DNA from: Hirschia baltica ATCC 49814 | GTDB lineage: Bacteria; Pseudomonadota; Alphaproteobacteria; Caulobacterales; Hyphomonadaceae | Direction: 5' to 3' | Assembly (NCBI RefSeq): GCF_000023785.1 | Contig: NC_012982.1 | Coordinates: forward strand, 2,046,001-2,110,000 | DNA: 64,000 bases | In this document: piece after piece, positions 2,199-9,536 of the stretch | How the letters are laid out: each line of letters begins with the position of its first letter | Numbering within the stretch: the stretch's first letter is position 1 | Program-made: the position numbers and the translations under genes | Notes under the pieces: model-generated | The model's input: the letters and a program-made list of their open reading frames with translations, nothing else | Told to the model about the DNA's origin: nothing | Database searches by the model: none

Positions 2199-2304
2199 AT
2201 TTTGCCTCTCTTCTATAGTTTTCATCGTATTTCTTTGTTTTTACATAAGAACGTGCTTGCGTCTTTAGTCTCATCTTGCGAGTTTGCAGAATTACGAGGT
2301 GCTT

Positions 2305-2757
2305 ATGAGTCTTATTCTTTATTGTCTAAATGGTCCAAACCTAAATCTACTTGGAACGAGAGAACCTGAGATTTATGGGAAGGAGACATTACAGGACATA
2401 GAAAAAATCGCTAGTGACAAAGCCAGTGAATTGAACGCGAAACTTACCTTTCGTCAATCAAATCATGAAGGCGAACTAGTGGATTGGATTCAAGAGGCAA
2501 GAAATAAAGCTTCTGCGTTGATTTTAAATGCAGCTGCCTATACTCACACCTCAATTGCAATCCACGATGCACTCAAGACACTGGAAATACCAATTATTGA
2601 ACTGCATTTGTCCAACCCACACTCTCGCGAGTCATTTCGCGCAAACAGTTATGTCGCTCCATGTGCAAATGGAGTTATTGCAGGCTTTGGATCTGCCGGA
2701 TATAGCCTAAGCGTTGAAGCGGCTGTCTCGCTCGTGAACAAACGGAGCATTAAATAA
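2305..2757 (+). CDS. aroQ: Type II 3-dehydroquinate dehydratase
   Basis: AroQ dehydrates 3-dehydroquinate to 3-dehydroshikimate in the shikimate pathway. The protein is 150 residues when started at the ATG at 2305, which has GAGGTG a few bases upstream; an in-frame TTG at 2284 is less likely. The family signature [18 protein letters not shown] is present with the catalytic Tyr24. [14 protein letters not shown] and the histidine segment [14 protein letters not shown] follow. The stop overlaps the accB start by one base (TAATG), so aroQ leads the accB-accC operon, an arrangement common in proteobacteria. Confidence 0.97.
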
Positions 2758-3227
2758 TGGCTGATAAAGTCGAAAAGCTAGATACGGCACTTATCCGTGA
2801 ACTCGCTAACATCCTAACAGATGGCAATCTTGGCGAGATTGAAGTTGAACATGGCGAATTGCGTATTCGCGTTTCCATGCCAGAACCGGCTGCAGTTTCT
2901 TACGCAGCTTCAGCGCCAATGATGGCACCAGCTGCCGCTCCGGTCGCTGCACCAGTAGCGGTTGCGGCACCAGCTGCTGCACCAGCAGACAATGCAAATG
3001 CGGTTAAATCTCCTATGGTCGGTACTGCATATTTCGCACCTGAACCAGGTGCAGCCCCCTTCATCGAAGTCGGTACAAATGTTAAGCAGGGACAAACTAT
3101 CTTACTCGTTGAAGCGATGAAAACATTCAATCCAGTAAGCGCTCCTAAATCTGGTGTTGTAAAAGAAATCTTGGTTTCTGATGGTCAGCCAGTTGAATAT
3201 GGTGAAGCTCTTGTGGTGATCGAATAG
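2757..3227 (+). CDS. accB: Acetyl-CoA carboxylase biotin carboxyl carrier protein
   Basis: AccB carries biotin between the carboxylase and carboxyltransferase halves of acetyl-CoA carboxylase. The 156-residue protein has a short helical N-terminus, an Ala/Pro-rich mobile linker at about residues 44-80 and a C-terminal biotinyl domain. The biotinylated lysine is Lys122 in [10 protein letters not shown]. It overlaps aroQ by one base and is followed six bases later by accC. Confidence 0.97.
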
Positions 3228-3233
3228 GCCACA

Positions 3234-4580
3234 ATGATGATAAATAAAGTTCTCATAGCAAACAGAGGTGAAATCGCACTGCGAATTCACCGTGCTTGTA
3301 AAGAAATGAACATTTCGACCGTTGCTATCCACTCAGAAGCCGACCGCGATGCAATGCATGTGCGTCTGGCCGATGAAAGTGTATGTATCGGACCTGCAGC
3401 TTCTGTGGACTCATATCTCAATATTCCAGCGATCATGGCTGCGGCTGAAATCACTGGGGCAGATGGTATTCACCCTGGATATGGCTTCCTTTCAGAGAAT
3501 GCCAAATTTGCTGAAATCGTTGAAGCGCACGACATTGCTTTCATTGGACCCACAGCCGAGCACATCCGTCTAATGGGTGACAAAATCGCAGCTAAAGATG
3601 CCATGATCCGCACAGGTGTCCCCTGTGTACCTGGGTCTGACGGCGGTGTAGCAGATGTGGCTGAGGCTCAAAAAGTAGCCAAACAGATAGGTTATCCTGT
3701 TATTATCAAAGCTTCTGCTGGTGGTGGTGGTCGCGGCATGAAAGTCGCACTAACTCCAGATGAATTAGAAACAGCCTTCCGTACTGCACGGACTGAATCT
3801 AAAGCAGCTTTTGGCGATGATGCTGTATACATAGAAAAATACCTTCAAAAGCCACGTCACATTGAAATTCAAGTGATTGCGGATACTCACGGTAATGTTG
3901 TTCATCTTGGTGAGCGTGATTGTTCTCTGCAACGTCGTCACCAGAAAGTATTTGAAGAAGCACCCTCTCCTGCACTTACTGAATCTGAACGCGCAGAAAT
4001 TGGTAAGCGAGTTTGTGCGTCAATTAAAAAGCTCGGCTATCGCGGTGTTGGAACAATTGAATTCCTCTGGGAAAACAATGAGTTCTACTTTATTGAAATG
4101 AACACGCGTTTACAGGTTGAACACCCTGTAACTGAAATGATCACTCGCAAAGACCTTGTTCAAGAGCAAATCCGAATTGCCTCGGGCGAAAAACTATCCT
4201 TTAAACAAAAGGATGTGCAATTCATCGGTCATGCTATCGAATGCCGGATCAATGCAGAACACCCAGTCACATTTGTACCATCTCCAGGTACAATCAAAGA
4301 CTTCCACGCCCCCGGTGGCTTAGGCGTTCGTCTCGATTCCGCCATGTATACGGGTTACAAAATCCCACCTCATTATGACAGCTTGATAGGTAAACTGATC
4401 GTGCATGGTATGACACGTGAAGAATGCCTTCTGCGCCTAAAGCGTGCTTTGGATGAGATGGTAATATCTGGTGTGGAAACGACTCTTCCACTTCATCTTC
4501 GTCTCGTGGAAAATGAAGATGTCGCAAAAGGTGAGTATGATATTCATTGGCTAGAGCATTTTCTGGCTAGAGAATCCTAA
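3234..4580 (+). CDS. accC: Acetyl-CoA carboxylase biotin carboxylase subunit
   Basis: The 448-residue enzyme performs ATP-dependent carboxylation of biotin on AccB. It has the N-terminal [18 protein letters not shown], the ATP-grasp glycine loop [21 protein letters not shown] and the catalytic [14 protein letters not shown]. Length is standard. The start codon is doubled (ATG ATG at 3234 and 3237), so the N-terminus is uncertain by one residue. It is followed nine bases later by aat. Confidence 0.98.
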
Positions 4581-4589
4581 GGCAAAATT

Positions 4590-5486
4590 ATGAGTGGTGG
4601 CTTCGGCCCAGATGATTTGCTGAATCTATACCGTCGCGGCATCTTCCCCATGGGGGAAGATGCCGACGACACTCAGCTATTCATTGTTGACCCAGATCAG
4701 AGAGGAATAATTCCTCTCGATGCATTGCATATATCTAAAAGTTTGAGAAAAACGGTCTCAAAAGATGAGTTCCGAGTGACTTTTGATACCGCCTTTACAA
4801 GTGTGATGGAAGCATGCGCAGCACCATATGAAAACAGAGAATCCACCTGGATTAACACGCCTATCATCAACCTTTATTCTGCTCTACACCGACAAGGATA
4901 CGCGCATAGCGTTGAATGCTGGAAAGATTCAGAATTAGTCGGTGGACTTTATGGTGTAAGTTTAGGCGGAGCCTTCTTTGGCGAGAGCATGTTCTCTACA
5001 CGCTCCAATGCATCAAAAGTCGCTCTTGTTCATCTCGTGGCGCGTTTATTGACTGGCGGCTACATCTTATTAGACACCCAATTCATTACCGAACACTTGT
5101 TAAGCTTAGGTGCGATAGAAATTCCACGCCATGAATTTCAAAATAAATTAGCAATAGCACTAAAAGCGAATGGTGATTTCTATTCTGATTTTGGTGCTAT
5201 TCAATCCTCATCAATGGACGACTTCGGGATAGAAATTGAATCTATAAATGACCCAGAGCGCTCGACAGGAACCGCTTCTAAATCAGCTTCTTCGACGAAT
5301 ATTGGTTCTGGATTAAAATCATCAATTGAAGGCAATCCCATCGATGCAGATTCATTGATATCTGATGATGGAAGTGCTTCTTCTGGAATAGCATCAAACC
5401 CCAGATTGGATTCTTCATACAAATCCAATGGCTTTGCTTCGGTTCCCGGCAAAGCAGCACTGCAACTGATTACCCAAACATCATAA
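4590..5486 (+). CDS. aat: Leucyl/phenylalanyl-tRNA-protein transferase with long low-complexity tail
   Basis: Aat adds Leu or Phe to N-terminal Arg/Lys of proteins, making them ClpS/ClpAP N-degron substrates. The conserved domain fills residues 1-204: LYRRGIFPMGE, STWINTPII, HSVECWKDSELVGGLYG, GAFFGESMFS and LLDTQFITEHL are clear. The remaining 94 residues are unusual. They are Ser/Asp/Gly-rich and lie entirely antisense to the 3' part of the DUF2155 gene. The last residues (LQLITQTS) resemble the ends of other alphaproteobacterial Aat proteins as I remember them, so the extra length is probably an insertion before an old C-terminus rather than a lost stop codon. The protein is 298 residues, against roughly 200-240 for the family. 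Confidence 0.93.
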   Translation: MSGGFGPDDLLNLYRRGIFPMGEDADDTQLFIVDPDQRGIIPLDALHISKSLRKTVSKDEFRVTFDTAFTSVMEACAAPYENRESTWINTPIINLYSALHRQGYAHSVECWKDSELVGGLYGVSLGGAFFGESMFSTRSNASKVALVHLVARLLTGGYILLDTQFITEHLLSLGAIEIPRHEFQNKLAIALKANGDFYSDFGAIQSSSMDDFGIEIESINDPERSTGTASKSASSTNIGSGLKSSIEGNPIDADSLISDDGSASSGIASNPRLDSSYKSNGFASVPGKAALQLITQTS

Positions 5487-5854
5487 AGCGAATGCTCCAA
5501 CGCATTTAACCCCGGAGAACTCGCAAACATCCATCCAGAGAAAAGCCGTGGATCATCATCCTTTGCTGTGCCGGTCTCTGCATTCACTCCCATAGATATC
5601 ACTTCAAGATACGCAGCTGCTTCTGGTGGCTGATCTTCCGGTGGTGATTGATGGCAAGCACGGACAGTTAGCCCAAGACCACCAAATTGGACAGTCTCGT
5701 CCAATTCGATTTCAATATCTGTTGCCTTACCTGTAATTTTCTCAAGCGCTCGCACCTTCACACCCGGTCGTGGATCGAGTGCAAATGCTGTTTGAGTAGC
5801 CGAAATCAAAACACCAACAGCAACAAATGCAGAGCACAAACCTAATTTACGCAT
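5201..5854 (-). CDS. DUF2155 family exported protein with acidic tail
   Basis: The protein has a signal peptide (MRKLGLCSAFVAVGVLIS to about AFA). A conserved domain follows, with VRALEKITGKATDIEIEL, LTVRACHQSPPEDQ, RLFSGWMFASSPGLNALEH and YDVWVISC, typical of DUF2155. These proteins are usually next to aat, mlaD and NDUFA12 in alphaproteobacteria; their function is unknown to me. The start chosen is the ATG at 5854, with GTGGAG upstream; a GTG at 5869 is the alternative. After VISC comes a tail of about 85 residues, Glu/Asp/Ser/Pro-rich and low in complexity, which runs antisense into aat. Usual members end shortly after the VISC-like motif. Confidence 0.85.
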   Translation of the reverse strand: MRKLGLCSAFVAVGVLISATQTAFALDPRPGVKVRALEKITGKATDIEIELDETVQFGGLGLTVRACHQSPPEDQPPEAAAYLEVISMGVNAETGTAKDDDPRLFSGWMFASSPGLNALEHSLYDVWVISCSAALPGTEAKPLDLYEESNLGFDAIPEEALPSSDINESASMGLPSIDDFNPEPIFVEEADLEAVPVERSGSFIDSISIPKSSIDED

Positions 5855-5961
5855 TTTCGTGAACTCCACAAATTTCTATCAGAATCAATTCAATCATCAT
5901 TCCCTGATCATATGCCTAAATGTGTTAGGCATATGTCATCAAATAAATTCTACATAAAATA

Positions 5962-6462
5962 TTACTGGGCTGCTGAATTATTAGCAGATATTGCCTCGGC
6001 AATATTCTTCAATCGCCCATCAAGAGATGTCGCAAACTCAGTCAACAAAGGTCCAAGTTCAACGGAACCACTTGTGTAGAGTATTTCATCACCAGGTTCG
6101 AGCATTGCTAATCCGCTACCAGGAAGCAATGCAATATGAGGCCCAGACAAAAACCCATCTGACGCTATTTTGGCAGTTGTATCTTCGTCCAATTCAATAC
6201 CTTCAGCAACATTCATGGTAATCTTAGGAACGAGACGTGCCTTGTCTAACTCAACATCCGTAACCACGCCGACTTTTACGCCCATCAAACGTACATCTGT
6301 TCCTTGAAGAACTCCATTGATTGGACCAGTGAACTGAGCAGTCAGTTCATAACTTCCATTTCCAGCTGTTTTTTCTGATTGTTGTAATGAAAACCACAGA
6401 AAAACACCCGCAGCTGCAACAACAGCAATACCTACGATTGTTTCAAATAATGAATCACGCAT
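5962..6462 (-). CDS. mlaD: Outer-membrane lipid asymmetry protein MlaD (MCE domain)
   Basis: A 166-residue protein starting at MRDSLFETIVG with one N-terminal transmembrane helix (IVGIAVVAAAGVFLWFSL). A single MCE domain follows, with TAQFTGPINGVLQGTDVRLMG and SDGFLSGPHIALLPG. MlaD forms a periplasmic hexamer on the MlaFEB transporter and carries phospholipids between membranes. The start at 6462 is preferred because it opens the membrane helix; it overlaps the end of the NDUFA12 gene by eight bases. The partner genes mlaE and mlaF are 43 kb away in this window, a split seen in other alphaproteobacteria. Confidence 0.93.
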   Translation of the reverse strand: MRDSLFETIVGIAVVAAAGVFLWFSLQQSEKTAGNGSYELTAQFTGPINGVLQGTDVRLMGVKVGVVTDVELDKARLVPKITMNVAEGIELDEDTTAKIASDGFLSGPHIALLPGSGLAMLEPGDEILYTSGSVELGPLLTEFATSLDGRLKNIAEAISANNSAAQ

Positions 6463-6841
6463 CTGGATCCCATGCCTCGTAATCACCGGCAGTTTTAGTG
6501 CGCTCGTCTGAACGCCACAAACTACCTTTAGGTTTGTAAGCTAACAAAGTCCCAGTCAAATTTGGCTGGTGTTGAAGCTCAAAAGACTTTTTCACCAATG
6601 GTTCTTCCGTTGGAGGTTTGTCAAAAGTATGGTGCATCCAGCCGTGCCAGTCTGGAGAAATACGCGATGGCTCTGCTGCACCGTTATAAATAACGTAGCG
6701 CCGCTTGCGACCTTCCTGACTCGGCTTCTTTTCTTCATAGAACTTATTGCCCCATTCATCATCACCGATAAACACGGCACGACGACCGATATCAAAACGA
6801 GTTCCAATAGTGGTGTTTTTCCACCAGCCAATAACAGACAT
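6455..6841 (-). CDS. NDUFA12-type NADH:ubiquinone oxidoreductase accessory subunit
   Basis: The 128-residue protein has the B17.2/NDUFA12 signature: GDDEWGNKFYEE, RRYVIYNGAAEPSRISPDW and HGWMHHTFDKPPTEE. It is an accessory subunit of respiratory complex I shared by mitochondria and alphaproteobacteria, which supports the taxonomic placement. It lies upstream of mlaD with an eight-base overlap, so the two are probably cotranscribed along with the DUF2155 gene. Confidence 0.93.
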   Translation of the reverse strand: MSVIGWWKNTTIGTRFDIGRRAVFIGDDEWGNKFYEEKKPSQEGRKRRYVIYNGAAEPSRISPDWHGWMHHTFDKPPTEEPLVKKSFELQHQPNLTGTLLAYKPKGSLWRSDERTKTAGDYEAWDPDA

Positions 6842-7028: not shown

Positions 7029-9536
7029 ATGGCGCAACGCAGGACAAAACAGCCGACTCAGTTACTAGCCCCCCTCATGGCTGCTGGAGAAATCTGGTTA
7101 AAAACAGATAGATCAGCCTCTATGAACTCAGCTGAAGCAACAGATTACCTTAATGGCCTAGCCACTCTAGACTGCGAATCTAATGCAAAGTCGACCATCA
7201 CAAACGCATTGTCTAAAGGCCGAATCTCTCCACTTCTACCACTCGGTGCGGCAATCGGTAGCGTCAGCCCTGCCCCAATTTCATCCGGTGGTGCTGAAAT
7301 GGCCATTGCAGAAGCAGCGACAGTAGCCGCTGCACGCGCAGCAACAGCACAGGGATTTGCTTCTTTAGCCGACGCCTTAGAAGGTTTAAGTATTGATACA
7401 GACGATGACGGCCTGCCAACAGCGGATGCACTCACTGATGCGCTTCGTTGCGGCGCAGATGCAGATCTTCTTGAAATCGCGTTATCTACCCCTGGCGGAC
7501 CGCGAGCTGCTGCAACAGCCCTAAGAAAACAGGCAGCAGCCGCCAGAGATACAGGCACAGTACATCTAGGACTAACGAATTGGTCAGATGCGTCAGCCGA
7601 AAAATTAGCCGATGCATCAAACCGGTTAGCTGGTTTAAGGATTGGGCTTCAAGTCAATCATTTGTCCAGAACGGCTCCCAACGCAAAATCTCCTACCTTG
7701 ATTCTAAATCTGGGTGCTTATTTTGACGATAAAACATTTGCAGAAGAAACTCTCAGATCAGATCTTGTCGATCTAAAATCAACCTTTCCTGGCCTAATCA
7801 TTATAGTAGCCGGCTTAGCAGCTACGATTATGTCAGAAGGCCTAGCGTTCGATTCACTTCAAGGTCGAAACCGCGCTACTGAAATCGCAGTCATATTGAA
7901 AGAATATCAAGCCGCCGATGCAAAAGATAAATCCGGTATTCAATTTGCTTTCTTACGGCCATCTCCAGATGCAGTGGCATGGCTGAACTTAGAGAGCATT
8001 GGTGTTGACCCCGTACAGTCTCTGATTTCAACCACAGAAGAAGACGAAAACCGTTTTTCTAAATGCGCCGGACTTGCGCTCAATTGCGCAGCCACCGAAG
8101 GACAGCGCCAAGATGTTGCATTGCGCGTTTTAGGAGCGAGATCCCTTGACCAAATTGATGGTCTAGAACGCAACCGCTTGTCAGAACGCGGCCTTACCAA
8201 TGAAGCACTAGATCGCGTTGAACAAGCAATACGAGACGGCTTACCGCTGCGCAGTGCCTTTTCACGTTGGGTGGTTGGTGACGACACAATCAAGAAACGC
8301 TTGGGACTAGCTCCCGAAGCATTCGAAACAGACGGTGAAGCATTACTCAGAGCATTGGGTATATCGGCCAGAGAAATAGAAGAAGGTCGCGCTGCTGTAG
8401 AGGGGCGACGACGCGCAGTCTCTGATCCAAATTCAGAACTAGCACATATATTTTACTTGGCGCGGCAAGCAAAAGCAGGAGCATGCATTCGATTTGCTTT
8501 GAGTATCAAAGAAGTGTTCGACGTGCCTATTTTGCTAACAGTTCCATCCAAAGAAGCTGCTGCGGCCAGCCGGCAAGATTTACAACTTTGCTTTAGTGCA
8601 GCCATCGAAAATGATCTCAGTCTACGGATAGAACCGTCGAAGCCAGTCATTAATGCAACGGTTTTGGAACGCTTGGCAGAAGCAGAAAAACGAGCATCCA
8701 CACCTCCTGCTTTTGTCCAGAGCCAAACTATCGCTGCCCCTCCTACCAAGCCAGAAGTACCAATCCACATTCAAGCACCTGATACAAAAACAGACCCAAA
8801 TACTTATGCAGCGCGTCGTCGCCTACCTGACAGACGCAAAGGCTATATTCAAAAATCCACTGTGGGTGGACATAAAGTCTATTTGCACACTGGAGAATTT
8901 GACAATGGAAGCCTTGGTGAAATTTTCATTGATATGCATAAAGAAGGCGCGGCTTTTCGTTCCTTAATGAACAATTTTGCCATCGCGATTTCAATCGGTC
9001 TACAATATGGTGTGCCTTTAGAAGAGTTTGTCGATGCATTCGTCTTCACACGTTTTGAACCAGCCGGTGAAGTCACCGGAAATGATTCAATTAAATCAGC
9101 AACCTCAATTCTAGACTATATTTTCCGAGAGCTTGCAGTGTCTTATCTTGATCGAGAAGACCTTGCTGAAATGGACGGTCTTTCTTCAGACGGCCTAGGA
9201 AAAGGTGAAGGTGATTCCACACGAAATGCACCTACTCCTCAAGAAGCTGTGCAACTCATATCCAAAGGGTTTAGTCGCGGTGCAATTCCTGACAATATTG
9301 TATTCCTTGATGCTGCATCCTCCCGCACCAAAGATGATGAAACGGTAGAACAAGAATTATCAGAAGAGCCCCCAGTTCATGAACCTGAATCACCTGTTGT
9401 GAATTTAGAATCTCAACAAGCGGACCAGCCCGATTACCTTGGTGATGCATGCCCTAATTGCGGTCATTTTACACTCGTAGAGGATGATGGTGTTGCAATT
9501 TGCGATGCTTGTGGAGCAACAGTACAAACAGCATAA
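7029..9536 (+). CDS. NrdJ-derived TSCPD protein lacking recognisable RNR catalytic residues
   Basis: 835 residues. From about residue 592 to 720 the sequence is close to the C-terminal TSCPD region of class II (B12-dependent) ribonucleotide reductase: [37 protein letters not shown] and [20 protein letters not shown]. It ends in a CPNC...CDAC zinc-ribbon/redox tail (about 808-829). Before that, pieces run collinear with NrdJ in a worn form: [15 protein letters not shown], then an [18 protein letters not shown] stretch, then [20 protein letters not shown] where NrdJ has its HIRMMAAAQPFISGAIS segment. No NPCSE-type active-site cysteine motif is present, and the first 300 residues are Ala-rich. 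It is about 400 residues shorter than usual NrdJ. Likely a pseudoenzyme or regulator; it is not broken by stops. Confidence 0.75.

Follow-up and report, generated by a model that had tools for sequence, protein, structure and literature searches.

A convergent aat/DUF2155 gene overlap common across the Alphaproteobacteria and probably widened in Hirschia by in-frame growth between two antisense stop codons

Results

Two convergent genes of Hirschia baltica share their 3' ends

The window analysed here, the 64,000 nucleotides of Hirschia baltica ATCC 49814 from position 2,046,001 to position 2,110,000 of contig NC_012982.1, contains two convergent genes, aat and a DUF2155 gene, that overlap tail to tail (Table 1). 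The source genome comprises 3,540,114 bp in 2 contigs and is estimated to be 100% complete; the nearest named relative of the window is Hirschia maritima (NZ_KB899544.1). Searches with curated profiles match the plus-strand protein to PF03588 (6e-67; 224.8 bits against a cut-off of 22.7; residues 7-179) and TIGR00667 (9e-56; 188.5 bits against a cut-off of 143.55; residues 12-193), and a profile search matches the minus-strand protein to PF09923/DUF2155 (3e-29; 101.4 bits against a cut-off of 27; residues 39-136), the invariant columns of which include GWMFASSP and YDVW. Checks of the open reading frames and of the sequence reproduce both frames and their overlap exactly as claimed in the original prediction, which a model had made from the sequence alone. 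The Aat stop lies, as that prediction had it, opposite DUF2155 YDVWVISC: the TAA is written by Tyr129 (TAT) of DUF2155 together with the last base of the Leu codon before it. The DUF2155 stop had been placed opposite Aat residue 204, at the end of the conserved Aat domain; the placement is right, since the TGA spans Ile204 and Gln205, but the domain probably does not end there, as the predicted model is ordered again at residues 281-298.

Table 1. Features of the aat/DUF2155 overlap, in window coordinates
Feature	Position	Strand	Description
aat, leucyl/phenylalanyl-tRNA--protein transferase	4590..5486	+	298 aa; open reading frame with PF03588 and TIGR00667
DUF2155 gene	5201..5869	-	222 aa; open reading frame with PF09923; hydrophobic at the N-terminus, beta-rich in the domain that follows, acidic in the C-terminal tail
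Convergent aat/DUF2155 overlap, 286 bp	5201..5486	both	Codon phase 123:213, third positions opposed
DUF2155 YDVWVISC, last conserved beta strand	5462..5485	-	Invariant columns; predicted strand; residues dictate Aat LITQTS
Aat stop TAA	5484..5486	+	Antisense of DUF2155 Leu-Tyr (CTT TAT)
DUF2155 stop TGA	5203-5201	-	Across Aat Ile204/Gln205; Aat offset shared with a genome of the same genus whose overlap is 52 bp
Aat Phe197-Tyr198 (TTC TAT)	5178..5183	+	A stop (TAG or TAA type) if read in the DUF2155 frame
Expanded spacer	5204..5429	both	Predicted disordered Ser/Asp-rich Aat loop on +; acidic DUF2155 tail on -
Aat residues 281-298, short strand and helix KAALQLITQT	5430..5483	+	Predicted ordered; antisense to last conserved DUF2155 strand

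Codon phase couples the composition of the two proteins

The overlap length is 1 modulo 3, and codon position 1 of each gene lies opposite position 2 of the other and third position opposite third, a phase written (123:213) for this convergent arrangement (PMC2174442). By the genetic code, this phase pairs GAN (Asp/Glu) with TCN (Ser), CCN with GGN, GTN with ACN, TGN with CAN, and TAN with TAN. Reversed in this phase, YDVWV reads TQTS and then a stop, and both Gln residues of Aat LQLITQTS are shadows of the Cys and Trp of DUF2155. Because GAN faces TCN, the Ser-rich stretch of Aat and the acidic tail of DUF2155 are one property and not two. The prediction of a Ser/Asp-rich Aat tail beside an acidic DUF2155 tail is therefore right in composition, with both compositions following from the phase, but the Aat segment is better described as an internal loop.

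Both frames are indeed open through all 286 bases, but taken alone this carries little weight. Phase (123:213) is the most permissive of the three: across 95-codon stretches of 43 long open reading frames of other genes in the window, 8.3% are open in this phase, as compared with 3.8% and 1.1% in the other two, and 64% of synonymous recodings in which the DUF2155 amino acids are held fixed keep the Aat frame open. With this background, the openness of both frames is weak evidence; we rejected it as proof of dual coding, and the main weight of the case rests on comparative sequence data rather than on open frames.

A pyrimidine (C or T) is the last base of the codon preceding the DUF2155 Tyr in all 173 overlaps scored, in all 24 non-overlapping pairs, and also in 30 of 34 loci without an adjacent aat. 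Because the bias persists where aat is not nearby, we rejected it as evidence of selection for the Aat stop, and we conclude that ordinary codon context, rather than Aat, keeps that stop in place.

The overlap recurs across the Alphaproteobacteria

Searches by genus, family, order, class, and named genomes yielded 198 distinct adjacent convergent aat/DUF2155 pairs; the class sample favours high DUF2155 scores and the pairs share ancestry, so the proportions given here are not to be read as frequencies. Overlaps of more than 4 bp are present in 179 of the 198 pairs, and 175 of these 179 (175 of all 198) are in phase 1 modulo 3. Their lengths range from 10 to 349 bp and are mostly 31-76 bp, with 46 reaching 100 bp. 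Most relatives thus have the short overlap, LQLITQTS against YDVWVISC, that had been proposed as ancestral, and the pattern that would have spoken against it, relatives without an overlap and an evident recent frameshift, did not turn up. Judged by these sequences, the aat/DUF2155 overlap is no error and no local peculiarity; it is old, and common across the class.

The same pairs dispose of TQTS, which the original prediction had named as a frequent ending of alphaproteobacterial Aat proteins, as an Aat motif in its own right. An ending of the xQxS type is present in 173 of the 175 overlaps in phase 1 modulo 3 and in none of the remaining 23 pairs, and Aat endings change in step with DUF2155: YDIW goes with TQ[IM]S, YDAW with QAS, and YVVW with TQTT. 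TQTS is the antisense of DUF2155 DVWV, covaries with it, and is missing wherever the overlap in phase is missing; we therefore rejected an independent function in Aat.

Several loci depart from this pattern. Four (order family f3: L032, L035, L037, and L041) have overlaps of 131-287 bp in a different phase (2 modulo 3), apparently an independent or frame-shifted version, and in L032 and L035 the Aat stop is still opposite the YDMW region. Three others (L185, L269, and L280) have a short Aat without TQTS and a DUF2155 tail with apparent homology to the tail of their neighbours on the tree, L231, L233, L249, L251, and L279, in which Aat reads through to TQTS in a 145-bp overlap; the two groups amount to a natural experiment on the importance of the Aat extension. 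In L010, L185, and L269 the overlap has been lost while the DUF2155 tails persist, which indicates that the Aat extension is dispensable in these three.

Both proteins lengthen together

Aat length and DUF2155 tail length are tightly correlated among relatives (r = 0.96, slope 0.95, n = 171). With stop offsets measured from one fixed alignment column, in which 192/193 is the Phe-Tyr position, in 79 of 171 relatives, and in H. maritima as well, the DUF2155 stop lies opposite the Phe-Tyr with which the Aat domain closes. Within the genus Hirschia, the overlap is 286 bp in H. baltica, 349 bp in H. maritima, and 52 bp in a third genome (G001). Since the DUF2155 stop is at the identical Aat offset in H. 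baltica and in G001, approximately 234 bp were gained between two stops that did not move, at a point within the spacer (5204..5429) that cannot be located exactly. This bears out the predicted in-frame expansion that lengthened both proteins at once. The predicted wording, a low-complexity insertion, is fair; no repeat accounting for the inserted DNA was found, and repeat expansion was rejected as its source.

On a tree built from both cores (Aat and DUF2155), which carries a long-branch warning, the class of long overlaps (at least 100 bp) requires 15 changes, at least 9 of which are forced by well-supported branches. Three long cases (L141, L197, and L198) extend DUF2155 into Aat instead.

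Predicted structures place an ordered Aat segment beyond the spacer

In the AlphaFold prediction for Aat, residues 1-200 are ordered with high confidence, residues ~212-278 are disordered (below 50), and residues 281-298 form a short strand and a helix (pLDDT ~85-87), this ordered C-terminus coming from one model from 32 sequences. Alignment of the predicted model with E. coli Aat (2dps_A) by VIA-align gives Z 26.4 and rmsd 1.9 over 200 aligned residues. Going by the model, Aat carries the fold of the E. coli enzyme, and its transferase role is assigned by profile and fold. The alignment reaches model residue 287 (E. coli residue 232-233) and covers only the first residues of the ordered end; it is therefore the strand that probably corresponds to the E. 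coli C-terminus, with the helix probably an addition. The conserved Aat fold thus probably extends past residue 204, and, as the model suggests, the Ser-rich stretch is internal, an inserted disordered loop followed by a structured C-terminal end. With an ordered end after the loop, there would be a reason for Aat to stay open across it. Many non-overlapping Aat proteins end in a short hydrophobic helix-like segment (e.g. SGTEAVKIIEAARQA and GGKAALDVIEQARAN), and some are without one.

The AlphaFold prediction for DUF2155 is all-beta, with seven strands, YDVWVISC in the last of these, and a low-confidence, disordered tail. Comparison with solved structures gave no interpretable match (Foldseek best E 0.07; VIA-align best Z 5.5), and we assigned no solved fold. 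The core of DUF2155 (window 5462-5755, minus strand; model m7c0b68f52bca) is a widespread alphaproteobacterial domain with a confident all-beta prediction.

Third-position transversions are depressed in both frames in pooled relatives

We analysed third-position transversions, which are silent except in two-fold codons. In the real frames of the Aat and DUF2155 cores, degeneracy has a very large effect on these transversions; in a virtual antisense frame, used as control, it has none in the Aat core (p 0.27) or the DUF2155 core (p 0.56). In the spacers of overlaps of at least 35 codons, with the conserved anchor and the Aat domain excluded, there were 0.24 transversions per site when four-fold codons face each other, 0.06 when DUF2155 alone has a two-fold codon, and 0.05 when Aat alone has one. 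Bootstrapping over clade-column clusters gives a rate ratio of 0.27 (95% CI 0.11-0.51) for a two-fold DUF2155 codon and of 0.22 (0.05-0.60; just 25 clusters contribute) for a two-fold Aat codon. Independent pairs give p 0.0042 (DUF2155) and p 0.0025 (Aat), and the result is unchanged whichever frame is used for the alignment. Third positions diverge most, in both frames. Spacer positions 1 and 2 evolve approximately equally, between the two single-frame patterns, in a balance that is even or leans slightly to DUF2155, and the constraint on the Aat frame could for that reason be the weaker. These sequence comparisons indicate purifying selection on both frames in pooled relatives, spacers of long overlaps included.

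Selection on each frame, the comparison that the original prediction had called for, is thus found in relatives, and there mainly in Hyphomonas, which dominates the data. The Hirschia insertion is represented by a single pair, H. baltica and H. maritima, with about a dozen usable sites, too few for the third-position comparison. Amino-acid identity between these two is ~0.48 in the overlap vs. 0.81 and 0.93 in the cores; the overlap evolves faster.

Discussion

We interpret the locus as a class-wide, ancient convergent overlap that lies between two built-in antisense stops and that was widened in Hirschia by in-frame growth, an interpretation to which we assign a probability of nearly 0.8. It draws on the observed geometry, phase, codon correspondence, co-extension, and recurrence of the overlap, and on the third-position constraint observed in relatives. 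In phase (123:213), any [VIL]-Tyr or Phe-Tyr with a first codon ending in C or T places a TAR stop on the opposite strand. The conserved [VI]Y of DUF2155 YDVWV accordingly ends Aat and sets its last residues (DVWV giving TQTS), and the Phe-Tyr closing the Aat domain, or a Gln, His, or Tyr just after it, ends DUF2155. Inserts between these two points, in multiples of three and free of antisense stops, lengthen both proteins together. Aat would have to remain open across the spacer, with the ordered end of its fold lying beyond, and DUF2155 would retain a soluble acidic or Pro-rich tail, an acidic tail entailing a Ser-rich loop opposite (GAN/TCN). From the sequences, both proteins are presumably translated to their ends, and from the model, the Aat C-terminus may have a structural role. 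The tails are most likely tolerated disordered segments, for which we claim no specific function. A stronger form would be a reciprocal lock on the stops, with each of two unrelated proteins providing, in a conserved dipeptide, the stop codon of the other. The pair would then evolve as a single unit, any in-frame insert extending both proteins; the last conserved DUF2155 strand would, throughout the class, lie antisense to a structured end of Aat; and both readings would be selected. We consider the odds on this form about even.

The best-surviving alternative, improbable in our judgement, is that the DUF2155 frame alone is selected and that the Aat extension is its passive shadow, acidic, Pro, and Ser codons rarely giving antisense stops. 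It is in keeping with the 64% of recodings that leave Aat open at fixed DUF2155 amino acids, with an Aat TQTS dictated by DUF2155, with the four loci (L010, L185, L269, and L280) that have the DUF2155 tail and a short Aat, and with a slightly stronger conservation of DUF2155 position 2 than of position 1 in long spacers (p 0.025 or 0.057), the Hirschia pair leaning the same way. However, transversions are depressed also where only Aat changes (0.22, CI 0.05-0.60; independent pairs p 0.0025), matched virtual frames show no such depression, and the predicted ordered end of Aat lies beyond the spacer.

Transcription of convergent genes has to be terminated, and transcripts that overlap may interfere with one another. 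On these general grounds the overlap might be kept as RNA or DNA, as a bidirectional terminator or for antisense regulation between the two mRNAs, with coding incidental; nothing in the present analysis supports this, and we regard it as highly improbable. No terminator-like site and no Rfam match were found in the overlap, and its folding shows no excess structure over shuffled sequences (z -0.8 and -1.0), so that we rejected all three as explanations; moreover, in both frames variation tracks codon position and the degeneracy of the code, and lengths change in threes. An annotation, sequencing, or assembly artefact, in which one gene or both would have been joined to unrelated sequence by a frameshift, has in its favour that long overlaps in databases are mostly misannotations (PMC2478687), but is practically dismissed by a genome in 2 contigs estimated as complete, by the same structure in a separate species (H. 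maritima, 349 bp), by 175 relatives in the same phase, and by third positions that are the most divergent in both frames.

The interpretation as an ancient overlap widened by in-frame growth has partial parallels in the literature. Among convergent prokaryotic overlaps, phase (123:213) is reported to be commoner in the longer ones, and an origin by stop-codon loss has been described (PMC2174442). The aat/DUF2155 overlap shares with these the tail-to-tail geometry, the stop-codon-loss origin, and the phase, but is class-wide and not lineage-specific, takes both stops from conserved dipeptides of the partner, and shows repeated co-extension. In a second survey, 54 of 178 convergent overlaps of more than 60 bp were classed as putatively true, with conservation described mostly in very close species (PMC2478687). 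The present overlap is likewise convergent, longer than 60 bp, and formed by well-characterised or conserved families; unlike that set, it is present in many families and comes with a frame-by-frame selection test that has internal controls. In E. coli O157:H7, newly described antisense open reading frames are accompanied by expression data (PMC9927249, PMC5810103); there, too, both strands of one DNA segment are protein-coding, whereas aat and DUF2155 are two old genes that share only their 3' ends and are known here from sequence. In the open-licence literature, where DUF2155 is mentioned, we found no paper on the overlap. We conclude that it is a clear new case of convergent overlap, unusual in how deep it reaches, in having reciprocal stops, and in recurring.

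It is common for long antisense overlaps of bacteria to be put down to misannotation or to open frames with no function. The aat/DUF2155 pair combines recognised families, overlaps that mostly span 31 to 349 bp and keep to one phase across a class, non-overlapping relatives as controls, and recurrent expansions, and offers both a natural test case for such overlaps and a direct way to measure mutual constraint codon by codon. It also counsels caution in reading motifs as functional signals: a conserved C-terminal motif such as TQTS can be the mere shadow of another protein's.

The neighbourhood of the pair (window 2284-6841) looks conserved: upstream of aat on the plus strand lie AroQ-like and AccB-like open reading frames, both read by eye, and accC, and beyond DUF2155 on the minus strand lie a MlaD-domain protein and NDUFA12, accC, aat, DUF2155, MlaD, and NDUFA12 all being assigned by profiles. 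Further along, an 835-aa open reading frame on the plus strand (window 7029-9536) has no Pfam match in its first 600 residues and has TSCPD (PF12637, residues 608-703) as its sole recognised domain; its C-terminus resembles, we presume, that of a B12-dependent ribonucleotide reductase.
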